Made by a program: the position numbers and the translations under genes. A stretch of 20,315 nt of DNA from a virus: positions 1 through 20,315 of the IMG/VR virus record IMGVR_UViG_3300043466_000717, one strand, 5' to 3'. The notes beneath the pieces were generated by a model. The model was not told the origin of the DNA and searched no databases. It saw only the letters and a list, made by a program, of their open reading frames with translations. Shown in pieces: positions 1,326 through 11,095 of the stretch; positions within the stretch are counted from its first letter, which is position 1; the number at the start of each line of letters is the position of its first letter.

Positions 1326-1583
1326 ATGAAACCTAAAACACAACGTGAGGCACTTTTAAACCACTTTGCAAACGGTGGCAAGCTAAGTACTATTGAAGCA
1401 ACTCAGAGGCAATACGGCTATTGTACTAAGCTACCAAGCCGTATATTTGACTATGAAAATGAAGGATTTGTTTTTAAGCGTGAAGTCGTAAACAAAAAAA
1501 ACATTTTTGGAAAAACTTGCTACTTCAATTACTATACTTTGGATTTGAAAAAAACACCTAAAAAAGTTTTGAAATTGATTTAA
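1326..1583 (+). CDS. Small helix-turn-helix protein (HTH_39-like), 85 aa
   Basis: The product opens with KPKTQREALLNHFANGG, then STIEATQRQYGYCTKLPSRI and a C-terminal part with FDYENEGF and repeated Lys. This matches the pattern of the small winged-helix family often annotated HTH_39 in phages: a first helix with QREALLxHF, a turn containing T-x-x-EA, a recognition helix ending in L-x-x-RI, and a basic wing. By family it should be a small DNA-binding protein, possibly an early regulator. It is the last gene before the small-RNA locus, whose promoter starts inside its last codons; it could act on that promoter, but that is inference. Confidence 0.7.
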   Translation: MKPKTQREALLNHFANGGKLSTIEATQRQYGYCTKLPSRIFDYENEGFVFKREVVNKKNIFGKTCYFNYYTLDLKKTPKKVLKLI

Positions 1584-1596
1584 TTAGTTATATTTG
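1568..1596 (+). promoter_or_regulatory. Bacteroidota-type promoter of the small RNA
   Basis: TATATTTG at 1589-1596 matches the Bacteroidota -7 consensus TAnnTTTG exactly, and TTTG at 1568-1571 matches the -33 element. The 17-base spacer is within, though at the short end of, the range reported for this phylum. The predicted start is near 1601-1604, exactly where the folded region begins. It overlaps the end of the helix-turn-helix gene. Confidence 0.65.
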
Positions 1597-1601
1597 CTTT
1601 G

Positions 1602-1719
1602 TTGATTAAGGAATTGGGAACTCCTCGACAGATATCAAGCTAAGAGTTTAAATACCTCTTGCAACCAGTGAGTAGACTTGACTACGTTCCCACATTGAAT
1701 TGCAAGGGGTATTTTTTTT
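1602..1719 (+). ncRNA. Candidate structured small RNA with pseudoknot, about 118 nt
   Basis: The 169 bases between the genes at 1583 and 1753 hold no reading frame of note but contain nested complementarity. UGGGAAC at 1615-1621 can pair perfectly with GUUCCCA at 1686-1692. The latter sits in the loop of a 15-bp hairpin (1650-1664 with 1700-1714, one G-U pair), so the two helices form a pseudoknot. A short GUAG/CUAC stem (1672-1675 with 1682-1685) fits inside the same loop. AACUC at 1619-1623 can instead pair with GAGUU at 1644-1648, which competes with the pseudoknot. A consensus promoter lies just upstream and a U-tract ends the hairpin, so a discrete transcript is likely. I do not recognise a known RNA family, riboswitch or ribozyme core. 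Pairing is seen directly; the RNA itself is inference. Confidence 0.6.
1650..1719 (+). terminator. Intrinsic terminator of the small RNA
   Basis: Fifteen base pairs (AAATACCTCTTGCAA at 1650-1664 with TTGCAAGGGGTATTT at 1700-1714, one G-U) are followed by eight Ts at 1712-1719. The 35-base loop is unusually long for a plain terminator and contains the pseudoknot-forming GTTCCCA. It would also stop read-through from the upstream early genes, separating them from the replication genes. Confidence 0.7.
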
Positions 1720-1752
1720 AACGCTTAATCAATGCGAAATTGATTATAAATT

Positions 1753-1965
1753 ATGGCATACGAATTAGTATTTACTTCAACTGAAAGGTCTGAAGTTGAA
1801 TCCACACTTATTGCAAGGGCTAATCAATTTAATGAAATTTTTATTCAAATTGATGCTGGTGATTATCCACCATGTTTTTTATGTTTAGACAAAGAAACTG
1901 CTATAAGATTTGCAAAGGAATTACGTAAACAAATTTCATTTTTGGAGGAGGTTAACAATGGCTAA
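1753..1965 (+). CDS. Small hypothetical protein, 70 aa
   Basis: First gene after the small RNA. ATG follows ATTATAAATT with no Shine-Dalgarno. The product opens MAYELVFTSTERSEVESTL, has a central beta-like stretch (EIFIQIDAGDYPPCFLCLD) with a Cys-x-x-Cys-like pair (C41 and C44), and ends in a charged helix that contains the next gene's ribosome binding site. Only two cysteines are present, so a zinc site would need a dimer. No family recognised. The stop overlaps the ATG of the initiator gene by eight bases, so it probably feeds translation of that gene. Confidence 0.65.
   Translation: MAYELVFTSTERSEVESTLIARANQFNEIFIQIDAGDYPPCFLCLDKETAIRFAKELRKQISFLEEVNNG
1944..1951 (+). promoter_or_regulatory. 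Strong ribosome binding site that fixes the initiator start
   Basis: GGAGGAGG lies six bases before the ATG at 1958. Such a strong Shine-Dalgarno is exceptional here, where most genes have only A-rich leaders. It selects the start MAKRFTDTDK at 1958 over the in-frame upstream ATG at 1910, whose extra 16 residues are unlike the family. Confidence 0.8.
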
Positions 1966-2581
1966 AAGATTTACCGATACAGATAAATGGAAAAAGCCTT
2001 TTATTAGGGGTTTAAAATCTGAGTATAAAATACTTTGGCTTTATATTTTAGATGAGTGTGACCACGCTGGAGTATGGCAAGTTGACTTTGATGTTGCTAA
2101 GATTAAGATAGGTGAGCCAAATATAACTGAACAAGATGCTTTATTATGTTTTGGTGATAGGGTAATTTGCTTAGAAGGAAAATGGTTTATTAATGATTTT
2201 ATTGATTTTCAATATGGTGAACTTAATCCTGCAAATAGGGTTCATAAATCAGTAATTGATATAATTTCAAAATTCAAAAATAAGCCCCTTATAAGCCCCT
2301 TACAAGGAGCTAAGGATAAAGATAAAGAAAAGGATAAGGATAAAGATATTAATATACCTTCCTATTTAGAATTTTTAGAGTATGCTAAAACACTACCAAT
2401 TTACAAACCTACTTTTGATTATGCTATAACAGCAAAATATAACGCTTGGGTTGCTGATGGATGGAGGGATGGGCATAACAAACCAATTAAGAATTGGAAA
2501 ACAACCTTACAAAATACATTTCCTTATTTTAAGGAGGTGTCAATAAACACAACCAGTAAACCACCACGAGGATTATGTTAA
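1958..2581 (+). CDS. Replisome organizer / replication-initiator-like protein, 207 aa
   Basis: The N-terminal domain (about residues 1-100, MAKRFTDTDKWKKPFIRGL, then KILWLYILDECDHAGVW) is the small winged-helix-type domain found at the start of many phage replisome organizers. A lysine/aspartate linker follows (residues 119-130). The C-terminal domain (about 131-190) ends in the conserved NGW/DGW-x-KPIKNWK-x-x-LQNTFPYF pattern. By analogy with lambda O and gram-positive phage initiators it would bind the origin and recruit the helicase encoded next door. The helicase ATG overlaps this gene's stop by seven bases, which supports a paired role. The linker DNA contains tandem repeats that could be the origin. 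Role by family similarity; origin binding is inference. Confidence 0.75.
   Translation: MAKRFTDTDKWKKPFIRGLKSEYKILWLYILDECDHAGVWQVDFDVAKIKIGEPNITEQDALLCFGDRVICLEGKWFINDFIDFQYGELNPANRVHKSVIDIISKFKNKPLISPLQGAKDKDKEKDKDKDINIPSYLEFLEYAKTLPIYKPTFDYAITAKYNAWVADGWRDGHNKPIKNWKTTLQNTFPYFKEVSINTTSKPPRGLC
2280..2355 (+). repeat. Tandem repeats inside the initiator gene; candidate origin iterons
   Basis: ATAAGCCCCTT occurs twice in direct tandem (2280-2290 and 2291-2301). After 13 bases there are six GATAAA-like hexamers in a row (2315-2350: GATAAA, GATAAA, GAAAAG, GATAAG, GATAAA, GATATT). The block ends in the perfect AT palindrome ATATTAATAT (2346-2355). The layout of iterons, purine-rich strand and AT-rich element inside an initiator gene is that of the lambda ori within O. 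The hexamers also encode the Lys-Asp linker, so protein-level selection is a competing explanation. Confidence 0.45.
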
Positions 2582-3456
2582 TAGACTTTGATAAAATAAT
2601 TGAGCAAATAGAATATCACATCGACCATCCCGAAAGTTTTAGTTATAAACTACCAATAATGAACGGTTTATACAACTTTAAGAAAGGTAGAACAACTTAC
2701 TTTGCTGGCATTCCTTCACATGGTAAAAGTACATTTGTTTTTGAGTTGCTGATACAGCTAACCGAGAAACATGGCTTAAAACACGTTTTAGTCGCTCCTG
2801 AGGAAGGAACAGCAGCCGAGTTGTACATAACTATACTTTGCATGATTACAGGGCTTCAAAATCGCTCTAATGCGTTTAACCGTTTAACCAAAGAAGTATT
2901 TTATAAAAACATTGCCTACTTAAAGTCGCATTTTCATATTTATGATTTGGGTGAAAAGAGCGTATCACCTTATAAAATACTTGAAGATATTAAGGAATAC
3001 ATTATAGAGCATAAAATTGATACTTTGACCTTAGACCCCTGGAATGAATTAACTCATGATTTTAGTATTGGTGGCGGTAGGCAAGATATTTACTTAGAAA
3101 AAGTGCTTGGTGACATAAGACTATTTTCGAGGGCAAATAAAATACATACTTTTATAGTTGCACATCCTCGAACATTACAAAAGTCTAAGGATGGAGGCAA
3201 GTATGAACCGCCAACGGCTTATGAGTTTAGTGGTGGTGGAGCGTGGTATGCAAAAGCTGATGGAATTATTTGTGTATACCGACCTGAGGAATTTAGCGAA
3301 GTATTCAAAGAGCAAACCAAAGTTGAGATTATCATACAAAAAGCTAAAAGAGGAATAGGTAAAAAAGGAATTATCAACTTAGACTTTAACTTGCAAACAT
3401 CAAGATACATCGAACTGGATAAACCGATTGAAAATAATTTCACAGCACCTTTTTAA
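2575..3456 (+). CDS. DnaB/Twinkle-type replicative helicase, 293 aa
   Basis: A RecA-fold replicative helicase that should unwind DNA 5' to 3' at the phage fork. Walker A is GIPSHGKST (residues 45-53), Walker B is LTLDPW with D154, and VAHPR (about 195-199) is the conserved sensor motif; E76-E77 in APEEG is the likely catalytic glutamate region. A basic loop, KAKRGIGKKG, occupies about 256-265. At 293 residues it is much shorter than bacterial DnaB (about 450) and lacks the N-terminal helical collar that binds primase and loader. It consists of little more than the motor domain. The start overlaps the initiator's stop by seven bases, so loading by the partner is likely. No primase is visible in the window. 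Confidence 0.9.
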   Translation: MLIDFDKIIEQIEYHIDHPESFSYKLPIMNGLYNFKKGRTTYFAGIPSHGKSTFVFELLIQLTEKHGLKHVLVAPEEGTAAELYITILCMITGLQNRSNAFNRLTKEVFYKNIAYLKSHFHIYDLGEKSVSPYKILEDIKEYIIEHKIDTLTLDPWNELTHDFSIGGGRQDIYLEKVLGDIRLFSRANKIHTFIVAHPRTLQKSKDGGKYEPPTAYEFSGGGAWYAKADGIICVYRPEEFSEVFKEQTKVEIIIQKAKRGIGKKGIINLDFNLQTSRYIELDKPIENNFTAPF

Positions 3457-3491: not shown

Positions 3492-3517
3492 TGTCGGAAT
3501 AGGTGTCGGAGGAATGG

Positions 3518-3595
3518 CACATAACGGATTAGTGCTACACGATGGTAGCATATTAAACACAGTACGTGCTACTATCTTGTAACACTTGTTATGTG
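3518..3595 (+). other. Folded element A: inverted repeat with CACATAAC/GTTATGTG arms
   Basis: CACATAAC at 3518-3525 and GTTATGTG at 3588-3595 form a perfect 8-bp outer stem. GATGGTAGCA at 3541-3550 pairs with TGCTACTATC at 3567-3576 (10 bp, one G-U) as an inner stem. GTGCTAC occurs twice (3532-3538 and 3566-3572), and either copy can pair with the single GTAGCA at 3545-3550, so two folds compete. The long imperfect hairpin with short conserved ends resembles a folded recombination site such as attC, although the outer boxes differ from the RYYYAAC/GTTRRRY consensus by one position. The alternatives are a leader RNA or a protein-binding inverted repeat. Confidence 0.55.
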
Positions 3596-3624
3596 TAGTG
3601 GTTTAAATTAAATAATAATTAAAT

Positions 3625-4257
3625 ATGAAAAGAATTTTATTAGCTTGTGAAGAAAGTCAAGCAGTTACAAAAGCATTTAGAAAATTAGGTTTTGAAGCAT
3701 TTAGTTGCGATTTATTACCTTGTAGTGGCGGGCATCCTGAATGGCATTTCCAGGAAGATATGTTTGAAGTAATTAAGCGAGAGCCTAAATTTGATTTAAT
3801 GGTTGCTTTTCCTCCATGCACAGATTTAGCAGTAAGTGGAGCAAGACATTTTGAACGTAAAATTGCAGATGGTAGCCAACAAAAAAGCATTGAATTTTTT
3901 ATGAGTGTGATTAATGCAGACGTTGAAAGAATAGCAGTTGAAAATCCAATCGGAATAATGAGTGGTAGATATAGAAAACCAGACCAAATAATTCAACCTT
4001 GGATGTTTGGAGATAAAGCTCAAAAAAGTACTTGCTTATGGTTAAAGAATTTACCTTTATTAGAACCTACAAATATTGTAGAGAAAGGAGAGTTTTTTGA
4101 GTTTACAAGTAAAAAAGGAGAAAAGAAACGGATGCCTATGTGGTATTATAAAGCCTTACAAGATGCTAAAACACCAGCAGAAAGACGAACATTAAGAAGT
4201 AAATTCTTTCAAGGTATGGCAGATGCGATGGCTGAACAATGGAGTAAAGTTTTATAG
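3625..4257 (+). CDS. C5-cytosine DNA methyltransferase-like protein, 210 aa
   Basis: The N-terminus KRILLACEESQAVTKAF fits the cofactor-binding motif I of Rossmann-fold methyltransferases, with an acidic residue at D29 after the second strand. FPPCTDL (residues 62-68) carries the Pro-Pro-Cys of the C5-cytosine catalytic loop with C65, and AVENPIG (104-110) corresponds to the ENV motif. Conserved QPWMFGD (124-130) and FQGMADAMAEQW (195-206) define a compact phage/prophage family of about 200 residues. There is no obvious target-recognition domain, so its specificity and even its substrate are open. It might modify phage DNA against restriction or act on a nucleotide or RNA. The gene stands alone between folded elements A and B, with 168 bases before and 129 after, unlike its packed neighbours, so it may have been acquired separately. 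Confidence 0.75.
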   Translation: MKRILLACEESQAVTKAFRKLGFEAFSCDLLPCSGGHPEWHFQEDMFEVIKREPKFDLMVAFPPCTDLAVSGARHFERKIADGSQQKSIEFFMSVINADVERIAVENPIGIMSGRYRKPDQIIQPWMFGDKAQKSTCLWLKNLPLLEPTNIVEKGEFFEFTSKKGEKKRMPMWYYKALQDAKTPAERRTLRSKFFQGMADAMAEQWSKVL

Positions 4258-4280
4258 TCGAAGCGTGTACTTCACTATTA

Positions 4281-4333
4281 CACATAACTCAAAGCTAAAT
4301 GCCGTTTTAATGGCTTTTAGCGACTGTTATGCG
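4281..4333 (+). other. Folded element B: inverted repeat with CATAAC/GTTATG arms
   Basis: CATAAC at 4283-4288 pairs with GTTATG at 4326-4331, and GCTAAATGCC at 4294-4303 with GGCTTTTAGC at 4312-4321 (nine of ten positions), closing a short loop. The outer arms match those of element A: ACACATAAC here against GCACATAAC there, and GTTATGCG against GTTATGTG. The loop and inner stem are unrelated in sequence. Same outer boxes with different inner stems is how sites recognised by shape tend to look. No U-tract follows, so it is not a standard terminator. Confidence 0.55.
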
Positions 4334-4356
4334 ATGTTGTGTACTCACAATTTCGC
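4331..4356 (+). other. Hairpin in the leader of the DnaA-like gene
   Basis: GCGATGTTGTG (4331-4341) and CACAATTTCGC (4346-4356) form an 11-position stem with one mismatch and one G-U pair around a TACT loop. It abuts element B and lies 30 bases before the DnaA-domain gene. It could be a leader RNA structure or a binding site for that protein. GTGTAC occurs here (4339-4344) and at 4265-4270, on either side of element B. Confidence 0.4.
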
Positions 4357-4386: not shown

Positions 4387-4764
4387 ATGATAGCAAACTA
4401 CACAATAGAACGTGCAAATGTAAAGTATGTTCAACCAAAGTTAACAGGATTAGCAGCAACTGATTTTATATTAGATTTATGTGCTAAAAGTTTTCACATT
4501 ACAGTTGACCAGTTAAGGTCTAATAGCAGAAAAAAAGAGTATACAGATGCTCGACATATTGCAAGGTGGTTTGTCTATTTCTATACTGATAAATCTTTAT
4601 TGTTGACTTCTATTTGCACAGGTGGCAAAGAGCATTCAGTTGTTTACAATGCACACGAAAAGGTTAAAAACTTTTTATTCACTGAGCCGTATTTTAAAAA
4701 AAGGTTTGATGCAATAAAAAATGAAATAGAAAAAAATATTGAACCAGTTAAATCAATTAATTAA
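4387..4764 (+). CDS. Stand-alone DnaA domain IV (origin-binding) protein, 125 aa
   Basis: Residues about 28-100 follow the DNA-binding domain of DnaA: a helix with FHITVDQLRSNSRKKEYTDARHIARW, then the signature GGKEHSVVYNAHEKV (79-93), equivalent to GGRDHSTVxHA of DnaA. No AAA+ ATPase, Walker motif or domain I/II is present. By family it should bind a DnaA-box-like sequence. Carrying only this domain, it could mark the phage origin, compete with host DnaA or act as a regulator. It follows element B and a hairpin, both rich in GTTATG-like sequence, which are plausible targets. I saw no canonical TTATNCACA box next to it. Domain assignment is firm; role is inference. Confidence 0.8.
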   Translation: MIANYTIERANVKYVQPKLTGLAATDFILDLCAKSFHITVDQLRSNSRKKEYTDARHIARWFVYFYTDKSLLLTSICTGGKEHSVVYNAHEKVKNFLFTEPYFKKRFDAIKNEIEKNIEPVKSIN

Positions 4765-8881: not shown

Positions 8882-11095
8882 TTAACTTGGATTTATTATT
8901 AACCATGCAACATCGCTTGTGTCAAGTATGCTACCGTTTGATGTAATTGTGAAAGACGTTCCTGCTGTTCTTGCTGTAACATCTATTGATGTTCCAATAG
9001 TTCCAGATGCGTTTTGTCTTGTTAGTTGTATTCTTGAATCTGCTGCTACTTTGGTTGTATTAATTGTTGCTACGCCTGCTACAAGAGTAACAATACCACT
9101 CATAGCATTAGTTCCTTCTTTTATTTTAATACCATTACCTACTGTGAAAATATTTAAATCTCCACCGCTTAATCTTAAAGCGTTTCTTGTTACTCCTGTA
9201 AATGCTCCATCGCTTCCTGTTAATGTAATATTTAAACCGTTAATTACTTGACTATTTACACTTGCATTTATTATTGGTGTAATTTCAGAAAAGTTATAAG
9301 TAGTTATTGCTGCGTTTGGTGCGTATGCTGTTGTATGAGTAAATGTAAATGCCTTGTAGTCGTATGCTGATATTAAAACAGCATTGCTTAATATACCTCT
9401 TATTACACCGCTTACTGGTGTAGTTTGGTTTATAGTACCTGTAAGAGCAAACATAGCCACATCAGTTGTGGCACTTGTATTAGCTACACCTCCCGATATT
9501 CTTAGTTTTCCAAAATTTGAACCGCCTACACTTGTATCGAGAGTTATTTGTACTGTTCTCGAAAAGTTTGTTACAAAAGAAATTGATGCTCCTGAACCTC
9601 CTTGCTCAAAAGTAGCATTATTTCCTAACATAATAGCGTTGTTGTTTTTTAACATAAACAAACTTGTACCTGCACTATTTCTAAAATCTACAACATTTTG
9701 ACTAGATGATATGCTACTACCTTCAACATGAAGTGTAGCATTAGGTGTAGGGCTTCCTGCCGTAGCATTAACCATTAACATAGCATTGCTATTGTAGCCT
9801 GTTGATAAGTATCTAAACTTGCCATTATCTTGACTTACTAATCCTGATGTACCTGCAAATAATATCGAACCACTTGTTATACTGGATAATGTAAGAGGAA
9901 CTGAAAGAGTAGCTGATGTAGAAGTAAACACAGCTAAATTAGTTGAATTTAAAAGTCTTATTCTGTGCTCTTGTGCATCATAAGTTATTAAATTTGGTGC
10001 TCCACTTAAACTTCCGTACATCGTTAAAGTAGGGTCAGCATTTGCAGTTGTTCCACCTATAATTCTATTATAGCCTGTTTGGTTATTAATACGATAAATA
10101 GCAGTTGTTGTATTTTGTATAATTGCAGATGAAGATACTTCAACTCCGTTTATTGTTTGAGTAGCACTCCAACTGTTGGCAGTTCCAAAAAGATTAAAAT
10201 ATTCTGGTATTGTTGCTCCTGCTCTTAAAAACCAAGTGTTTGTTCCTTTTGCTAATCTTGTTGCTACTCCACTTGCACCACCATATATTATATCACCCAC
10301 AGTTGTCATTGGGTTAGCAAAACCACCTAATCCTGCTAATGTATAGTCAGGTATGTTTAAAGCACCTGTTCCACTATTGTAAGTTGATGCACCGCTATTT
10401 CCTGATGTGGTTAAAGTTATTGAACTTCTTGACCTTGCATCGGTGTAGTATAAATTAGTTACTTCACTAATATTTGCAGTTGTTAAATTAACCGAACCTG
10501 TAAATCCATTTACCGAACTAACTGCATCCGTATTATCTACCTTGCTCCATGTTGTTCCGTTGCTTATAATCCAATCACCAACTTGCCAATCTGTAATGCC
10601 ATCAATATTAGTTGAGCCTGCTACATTTACAATATAGTACCAACCATTATTGCCACTACTTGCAGCTGGTATTGTTGGTGTGTTAGTTGATGCATTCCAA
10701 ACTCCTTTATAGGTTGCCCCACCAAGTAATGCAGATAAACTATTTTGAACCCTACCAAATGCAACTAATATACTATCTGTTGCAAGTATTGAACCGCCTG
10801 TGCTTAAATTTAAACCAGTTAATACTTTTCCTATTACTGCTGAATTTAATAAACTTGGATTTACATACGTACCGCTTAATTCACCGCCTGCCGATATGCC
10901 TGCAATAGTTGTTAAATAAGTATTAGTATCGTAGCTTATTACGCCTGCTGTTGACTTTACAAAACCTGTACCACTTAGCACCGCTTGTTTTGAAGCCAAA
11001 GCATCAGCCACAACATCCTCACTTGGTGCAAATAATGTTTCGCCATTTCTAATAGCTTGGCTTACTTCTGTTGGTATATTTATATCTATTGCCAT
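8882..11095 (-). CDS. Tail fibre / receptor-binding structural protein, 737 aa
   Basis: A long fibrous protein low in charge and rich in Gly, Ser, Thr and Asn. The N-terminus (MAIDINIPTEVSQAIRNGET, about residues 1-60) probably attaches to the tail. Segments typical of Bacteroidota phage fibres follow: YKGVWNASTNTPTIP, then WYYIVNVAGST with DWQVGDWIISNG (about 130-185), and VSSVNGFTGSVNLTTANISE with NLYYTDARSR (about 195-225). The middle holds beta-rich repeats (TLSVPLTLSSITSGSILFAG). The last 70 residues (SRIQLTRQNASGTIGT and VAWLIINPS) form a terminal module seen at the end of many such fibres. There is no C-terminal chaperone/protease domain. By position just before the lysis genes it should mediate host recognition. 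Confidence 0.8.
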   Translation of the reverse strand: MAIDINIPTEVSQAIRNGETLFAPSEDVVADALASKQAVLSGTGFVKSTAGVISYDTNTYLTTIAGISAGGELSGTYVNPSLLNSAVIGKVLTGLNLSTGGSILATDSILVAFGRVQNSLSALLGGATYKGVWNASTNTPTIPAASSGNNGWYYIVNVAGSTNIDGITDWQVGDWIISNGTTWSKVDNTDAVSSVNGFTGSVNLTTANISEVTNLYYTDARSRSSITLTTSGNSGASTYNSGTGALNIPDYTLAGLGGFANPMTTVGDIIYGGASGVATRLAKGTNTWFLRAGATIPEYFNLFGTANSWSATQTINGVEVSSSAIIQNTTTAIYRINNQTGYNRIIGGTTANADPTLTMYGSLSGAPNLITYDAQEHRIRLLNSTNLAVFTSTSATLSVPLTLSSITSGSILFAGTSGLVSQDNGKFRYLSTGYNSNAMLMVNATAGSPTPNATLHVEGSSISSSQNVVDFRNSAGTSLFMLKNNNAIMLGNNATFEQGGSGASISFVTNFSRTVQITLDTSVGGSNFGKLRISGGVANTSATTDVAMFALTGTINQTTPVSGVIRGILSNAVLISAYDYKAFTFTHTTAYAPNAAITTYNFSEITPIINASVNSQVINGLNITLTGSDGAFTGVTRNALRLSGGDLNIFTVGNGIKIKEGTNAMSGIVTLVAGVATINTTKVAADSRIQLTRQNASGTIGTSIDVTARTAGTSFTITSNGSILDTSDVAWLIINPS

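Follow-up and report, generated by a model that had tools for sequence, protein, structure and literature searches.

Paired loops of a 5' hairpin and its own terminator in an RNA that probably serves as leader of phage replication operons

The P4 CI RNA reportedly works by premature termination ahead of replication genes. In the IncB/IncI-alpha repZ leader, control is exerted at the level of translation by a pseudoknot that contains no terminator and is opposed by an antisense RNA. The leader of the pT181 replication gene repC carries a 5' hairpin followed by an intrinsic terminator, and kissing is central to attenuation there (PMC4878617), while the IsrK RNA of prophage Gifsy-1 ends at its own terminator, part of it reads through, and the short form acts in trans on the long one (PMC4825925).

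The RNA described here lies at the entry to a phage replication region and combines features of these systems. With the repZ leader it shares a long-range pairing of loops immediately ahead of the gene for a replication initiator, but that leader acts on translation, is opposed by antisense RNA and has no terminator in its pseudoknot. The P4 CI RNA, together with c4 of P1/P7 (RF01695), resembles it in having complementary segments on the same strand of a phage leader RNA; however, the anatomy is different, an Rfam match is absent here, and those are immunity RNAs of temperate elements, whereas one of the phages that carry the present layout, FCL-2, is virulent. To our knowledge, a 5' hairpin that kisses the loop of its own terminator is known in none of these systems; the open-access literature was searched, and an earlier description is possible. 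Closest in layout is pT181 repC, likewise a replication-gene leader with a 5' hairpin, a terminator and loop-loop kissing, but there the kiss is made with an antisense RNA transcribed from the opposite strand, and an antiterminator is built in (PMC4878617), whereas here both loops are on one RNA and no antiterminator of the pT181 type was found. No antisense promoter opposite the RNA was noticed by eye. P4 CI and IsrK are closest in logic. IsrK, too, is a phage RNA with its own terminator and partial read-through into downstream genes, but it controls anrP and, via anrP, the anti-Q gene antQ rather than replication, and a kissing terminator is not described in the part of the report used here (PMC4825925).

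The window, i.e., the whole stretch of DNA analysed, is a 20.3-kb IMG/VR virus contig (IMGVR_UViG_3300043466_000717, positions 1 to 20,315), and its features are collected in Table 1. An intergenic region (1584–1752) separates the HTH_39 gene from the replication region; it contains no ORF of at least 50 aa, in agreement with the non-coding body claimed in the first-pass annotation. The promoter proposed there is an exact match in both boxes and spacer, the Bacteroidota consensus being TAnnTTTG/TTTG (PMC2483708), and its -33 box falls within the 3' end of the HTH gene. The pattern alone is weak, since 29 of 100 shuffled versions of the window have at least one match. A search for sigma-70-type sites found none. 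The terminator hairpin has the 15 pairs and the eight-T tract assigned to it, a GC-containing stem being directly followed by the U tract as in an intrinsic terminator, and the expected transcript, about 1600–1719, would be close in length to the 115–120 nt that had been predicted. Above the lower stem there is an upper stem, CAGUG (1666–1670)/CAUUG (1693–1697), and a sub-hairpin, GUAG (1672–1675)/CUAC (1682–1685).

Table 1 Features of the RNA locus and the adjoining genes in the window
Feature	Coordinates	Strand	Details and evidence
HTH_39 winged helix-turn-helix protein, 85 aa	1326–1583	+	Pfam PF14090, E=2.8e-9
Bacteroidota-type promoter, TTTG-N17-TATATTTG	1568–1596	+	TTTG 1568–1571, 17-nt spacer, TATATTTG 1589–1596; exact match; both boxes unchanged in L003
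5' hairpin H1	1598–1632	+	UUUGUUGA (1598–1605)/UCGACAGA (1625–1632), two G-U pairs
Kissing segment 1, UGGGAAC	1615–1621	+	Within H1 loop; UGGUAAC in L003
Linker	1633–1649	+	Between H1 and terminator hairpin
Terminator hairpin	1650–1714	+	15-pair lower stem, AAATACCTCTTGCAA (1650–1664)/TTGCAAGGGGTATTT (1700–1714); compensated changes in L003
Kissing segment 2, GUUCCCA	1686–1692	+	Terminator apical region; GUUACCA in L003
U tract	1712–1719	+	Sequence; predicted 3' end about 1718–1720
First downstream ORF, 70 aa, no family	1753–1965	+	ORF list, Pfam
Replication-organiser-like gene (MAKRFTD...)	1958–2581	+	Putative function, from position and the alternatives at the same place
DnaB-like replicative helicase	2575–3456	+	Pfam PF03796, E=3.5e-10; PHROG primase/helicase

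The first-pass annotation recognised the terminator and the wealth of complementarity, but omitted the main feature, the kissing loops, and also missed H1. The inner part of H1 comprises a 4-nt bulge, the short helix GGA (1610–1612)/UCC (1622–1624) and the loop AUUGGGAAC (1613–1621). This hairpin is present in the minimum-energy fold of the syntenic copy L003 and absent from that of the window, where its assignment therefore rests on homology. The two kissing segments are complementary over seven pairs and are predicted to form an intramolecular loop-loop helix. The crossing-helix score of the intergenic region is -39.2, compared with a shuffle mean of -21.9 (sd 3.0, minimum -31.6, n = 100); the kiss alone, with the terminator taken as given, has p = 0.03 in the window, and the folding energy of 1602–1725 is moderately unusual (z = -2.18, 7 of 200 shuffles being as stable). 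Tentatively, UCAAG in the linker (1635–1639) may pair with the sub-hairpin loop CUUGA (1677–1681), L003 having GGGA/UCCC at the same places (n = 2). Two other candidates were discarded: a long-range pairing of UUGAUUAAG (1602–1610) with CUUAAUCAA (1724–1732), which reaches past the terminator, is AT-rich and is only partly kept in L003, and an HDV-like ribozyme, whose nested helices are loosely alike and for which, on inspection, neither the J4/2 segment nor the catalytic C could be placed.

The RNA and its promoter are conserved in L003 at 76% identity, and the kiss differs from that of the window by a compensated change (Table 1). Further compensated changes are found in the lower terminator stem and in the sub-hairpin, which reads GCAU/AUGC in L003. 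The syntenic HTH_39 protein is 52% identical, and L007 provides a relative. L004 retains the order of HTH_39-like ORF (read from the sequence), RNA, replication gene and helicase, with a kissing pair different from that of the window, GUGAUGAG/CUCAUCAC; in its ordinary minimum-energy fold, which is blind to the kiss, both segments land in the two apical loops. The place of the 70-aa ORF is occupied by a different gene in L003 and by the replication gene in L004. A near-exact 16-base pattern gave 21 matches in viral contigs, only two of them true copies, and direct DNA similarity to phages and plasmids yielded chance-level matches only for the window RNA and none for the freshwater subfamily described below. 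The Rfam search proposed in the first-pass annotation gave no match to the gathering threshold (best PyrR, 19.8 bits versus 54 needed), and no match at E <= 0.1 was obtained for ten relatives.

An alignable freshwater subfamily, present in at least 120 contigs by a pattern scan and, among the matches listed, in metagenomic contigs only, allowed the structure to be assessed by covariation. The 43 distinct RNAs among the matches listed were aligned to a model consisting of 5' hairpin, linker and terminator, in which loop 1 kisses loop 2. Across H1, the terminator stem and the kissing helix, 99.1% of the cells in these 43 listed sequences are paired and 11 pairs are changed on both sides, whereas sliding the partners by 1–3 columns leaves 34–43% paired with 0–2 double-changed pairs, and shuffling leaves 87.7% paired. 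Within the kissing helix, five of the seven pairs are changed on both sides with 99.3% of cells paired (43 sequences among the matches listed), and double-changed cells amount to 99 of 301 (33%) in the kiss, the 5' hairpin having about 5% and the terminator stem about 2%, again among the matches listed. The H1 loop is thus complementary to the terminator loop with covariation. A covariation check had been suggested in the first-pass annotation, and besides the covarying pairs of this subfamily there is one compensated kissing pair between the window and L003. The constancy of the linker is not evidence, because the search pattern fixed it.

The kissing loops of the subfamily are also hypervariable: the mean pairwise difference is 0.40 in each loop, whereas the outer 5' stem has 0.13, the terminator stem 0.12 and the coding region upstream 0.16. 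Among the matches listed, six loop alleles are distinguished and the loop pairs are perfect in 41 of 43 RNAs; the other two, L228 (CTACGAA/TTCGCAG) and L304 (AGTCGAG/CTGGACT), have one kiss mismatch each, are apparently recombinants between alleles and provide test cases supplied by nature. The six alleles combine freely with five kinds of first gene among the matches listed, namely replication genes of the MAKRFTD, DUF1376-like and Lin1244_N-like types, HNH and GIY-YIG, and since alleles pair with different first genes the RNA appears to be a module of the replication operon and not of one gene. The subfamily RNA often ends 8–35 nt ahead of the first ATG. Among the matches listed, the next gene is in every case a replication gene or an HNH/GIY-YIG endonuclease gene, and the endonuclease gene lies ahead of a replication gene at the loci traced beyond it (L105, L121 and L129). 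Free-standing GIY-YIG/HNH genes sit exactly between RNA and replication gene with several loop alleles (these three loci and others of L186–L305). Alleles co-occur in five metagenomes, where their within-sample distinctness is not beyond chance by a rough estimate; exclusion of alleles within samples was considered and set aside as suggestive and not significant.

Recurrence was examined with relatives of the replication-organiser-like gene, gathered from viral contigs and genomes (92 dereplicated loci), and the RNA is often found just upstream of such relatives. Crossing-helix scores of the 200 nt upstream of the start codon, evaluated against shuffles, split the 92 loci into roughly a quarter far beyond chance and a random-looking remainder. 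A stricter scan required a terminator hairpin with a T tract and a loop complementary to upstream RNA. It placed a kissing terminator no more than 80 nt upstream of the replication gene at 15 of the 92 loci versus 3 of 1840 shuffled upstream regions, a rate 23-fold over that elsewhere on both strands of the same loci (Fisher p = 2e-15). The element invariably runs in the same direction as the replication gene, and where a terminator is present there, kissing complementarity reaches p <= 0.02 in 44% of cases. At some loci the element is found 200–570 nt upstream with a small gene between, examples being the window and phages in which an HNH or GIY-YIG gene is inserted; the window element, at -244, lies between its promoter and the first gene of the replication operon with the one 70-aa ORF in between. 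L024, about 570 nt upstream of its replication gene, has a 12-pair kiss/pseudoknot and a 17-pair terminator stem (total -56.9). In many relatives of the replication gene, the 200 nt upstream lack such an element, one group of rep-C phages has a plain hairpin only, and in Lin1244/DUF4373-type isolate phages (Enterococcus, Vibrio, Lactobacillus, Porphyromonas) the element was not found just upstream of the replication gene. The layout of promoter, 5' hairpin, kissing terminator and replication gene recurs in many unrelated phages, in families that share no primary sequence; common descent is therefore not proven, and the architecture could be a case of convergence and not one family. By inspection, the promoters are of Bacteroidota type in some families and TTGACA/TATAAT-like in others, so that the layout appears not to be limited to a single host phylum.

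Two sequenced laboratory phages of Flavobacterium columnare, FCL-2 and FCV-1, have the same layout. The gp53–gp54 interval of FCL-2 contains a TATATTTG promoter, a 5' hairpin (TGTAG/CTACA) and a terminator (AACCCTTAA/TTAAGGGTT) ahead of gp54, with the kiss CATCCAC/GTGGATG. FCV-1 and its relatives have AATGTAATG/CATTACATT, the kiss GTAGAGAG/CTCTCTAC (read by eye), a 13-pair stem and an imperfect U tract (AACUUUUU), the interruption of which is the reason that the scan missed this kiss. Similarity between the two phages covers the promoter-side flank (about 50 nt at 87%) and does not extend to the RNA body. Their first replication genes match PHROG replication-initiation families, with a small ORF between in FCV-1. 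FCL-2 is described as virulent (PMC8092290), which excludes classical lysogenic immunity at least in this phage, and with it a general role of the RNA in such immunity.

The sequences themselves show the anatomy, the covariation, the recurrence, the diversification of the loops and the linkage to replication genes. The element is probably a leader, or attenuator, RNA that gates the phage replication operon, and it probably controls whether, and for whom, expression of the replication genes begins. Attenuation is the most economical reading, given that the terminator separates the promoter from the operon and that no other Bacteroidota-type promoter with the same spacing was found across the window. 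We infer that the promoter just upstream starts a transcript of roughly 120 nt, in which the 5' hairpin would fold first and the terminator hairpin second, whereupon both apical loops would kiss. Most transcripts would stop at the U tract and give a compact RNA, and the replication genes (1753–3456 in the window) would be expressed only from polymerases that read through. The kissing pair would set or tune this choice, as pairing of the terminator loop with H1 most likely alters the efficiency with which the terminator forms and hence the amount of replication protein. We lean towards a kiss that stabilises the terminated form, because members of the alignable subfamily keep a closed stem about a 7-nt loop that is fully paired, and the loop pair would be a specificity element too, because it changes rapidly while staying complementary. 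In most families, pairing of the linker with a terminator arm is no better than for a shuffled linker. Since no conserved antiterminator was found, this is no classical two-state switch, and regulation would have to depend on the kiss itself, on a protein or on another RNA.

An attenuator that works purely in cis has no need of hypervariable loops, and the rapid, compensated change of the loop pair, which would not be expected of such an element, is the best hint of recognition in trans. In such self-specific control, which is compatible with attenuation and which we regard as possible and no better than tentative, the terminated RNA or a processed half would kiss nascent or read-through leader RNA of the same allele and so limit the replication of sister or superinfecting genomes, like P4 CI, plasmid incompatibility RNAs and IsrK. 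The rapid divergence of loops that remain complementary and the presence of several alleles in one metagenome are consistent with it, and IsrK offers a precedent for a terminated phage RNA that acts in trans on its own read-through transcript (PMC4825925). However, the intramolecular kiss should out-compete pairing in trans unless the RNA is processed or acts during transcription, within-sample distinctness of alleles is not beyond chance by a rough estimate, and the virulence of FCL-2 excludes, in that phage at least, an immunity function of the classical lysogenic kind.

Covariation and recurrence bear out, at the level of sequence, the first-pass claim that a discrete, structured RNA equipped with a promoter and a terminator of its own stands before the replication genes, but the further proposal of a stand-alone small RNA or decoy is not established, and the leader is simpler because the RNA directly precedes the replication operon in every traced locus of the alignable subfamily, among the matches listed. 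An RNA that is a decoy or regulates host genes, and that lies ahead of the replication operon by happenstance, would fit the separate promoter and terminator and the expected stability of a compact two-hairpin kissed structure; we consider it unlikely, since the RNA is closely tied to the first replication gene even where the replication proteins are unrelated, and since the families have no conserved unpaired segment in common that might serve as a shared target. Kissing and hypervariable loops are also known in plasmid primer control, and this parallel, with the adjacent replication gene and the small DnaA-domain proteins encoded nearby, would suit a replication-origin element, whose transcript would be a primer or R-loop RNA with hairpins controlling its 3' end in the manner of ColE1 RNA II. 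This is quite improbable, as the position is fixed relative to the start codon and not to any repeat, and termination at the U tract would set the RNA free. That the site acts as structured DNA, single-stranded or cruciform, is hardly credible although inverted repeats are common near replication genes: the frequent G-U/U-G pairs in the covarying stems indicate an RNA made from this strand and not DNA, both promoter and U tract are retained, and the element never points away from the direction of the replication gene.

If the leader reading holds, phage DNA replication would have a further, common checkpoint at its entry, set at the level of RNA and spanning several unrelated replication proteins and more than one promoter type. 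A bolder and doubtful extension is that same-strand kissing-hairpin attenuators form a very widespread, undescribed class of phage RNA, with the loop pair as a code for self and non-self. If this were true, the released RNA would throttle genomes of the same allele, as superinfection or copy control, and this would drive the diversification of alleles. The hypervariable, co-varying loops offer a direct, testable approach to how phages in a co-infection might distinguish transcripts of their own from foreign ones. FCL-2 and FCV-1 make the proposal directly testable.

Several further observations concern the surroundings of the RNA. A perfect Shine-Dalgarno run, GGAGGAGG, unusual for a Bacteroidota-type phage, lies at about 1943–1957 ahead of the replication-organiser-like gene, and the RNA contains a complement to it, CUCCUC (1621–1626), which may be coincidental. 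Two hairpin-forming elements whose ends are alike (CACATAAC...GTTATGTG/GTTATGCG), at 3513–3600 and 4276–4345, flank a DNA-methyltransferase gene (3625–4257, phrog_757). By eye they resemble attC-like sites at which a mobile gene cassette would recombine, and ahead of the first there is a TATATTTG box. A small protein with only the C-terminal, DnaA-box binding domain of DnaA is encoded near the RNA in the window (4387–4764) and likewise in another phage group (L253:10006–10434). The divergently transcribed structural half of the contig includes, on the minus strand (8882–11095), a gene for a tail-spike-like protein with a C-terminal K1-lyase-type domain (PF24146).
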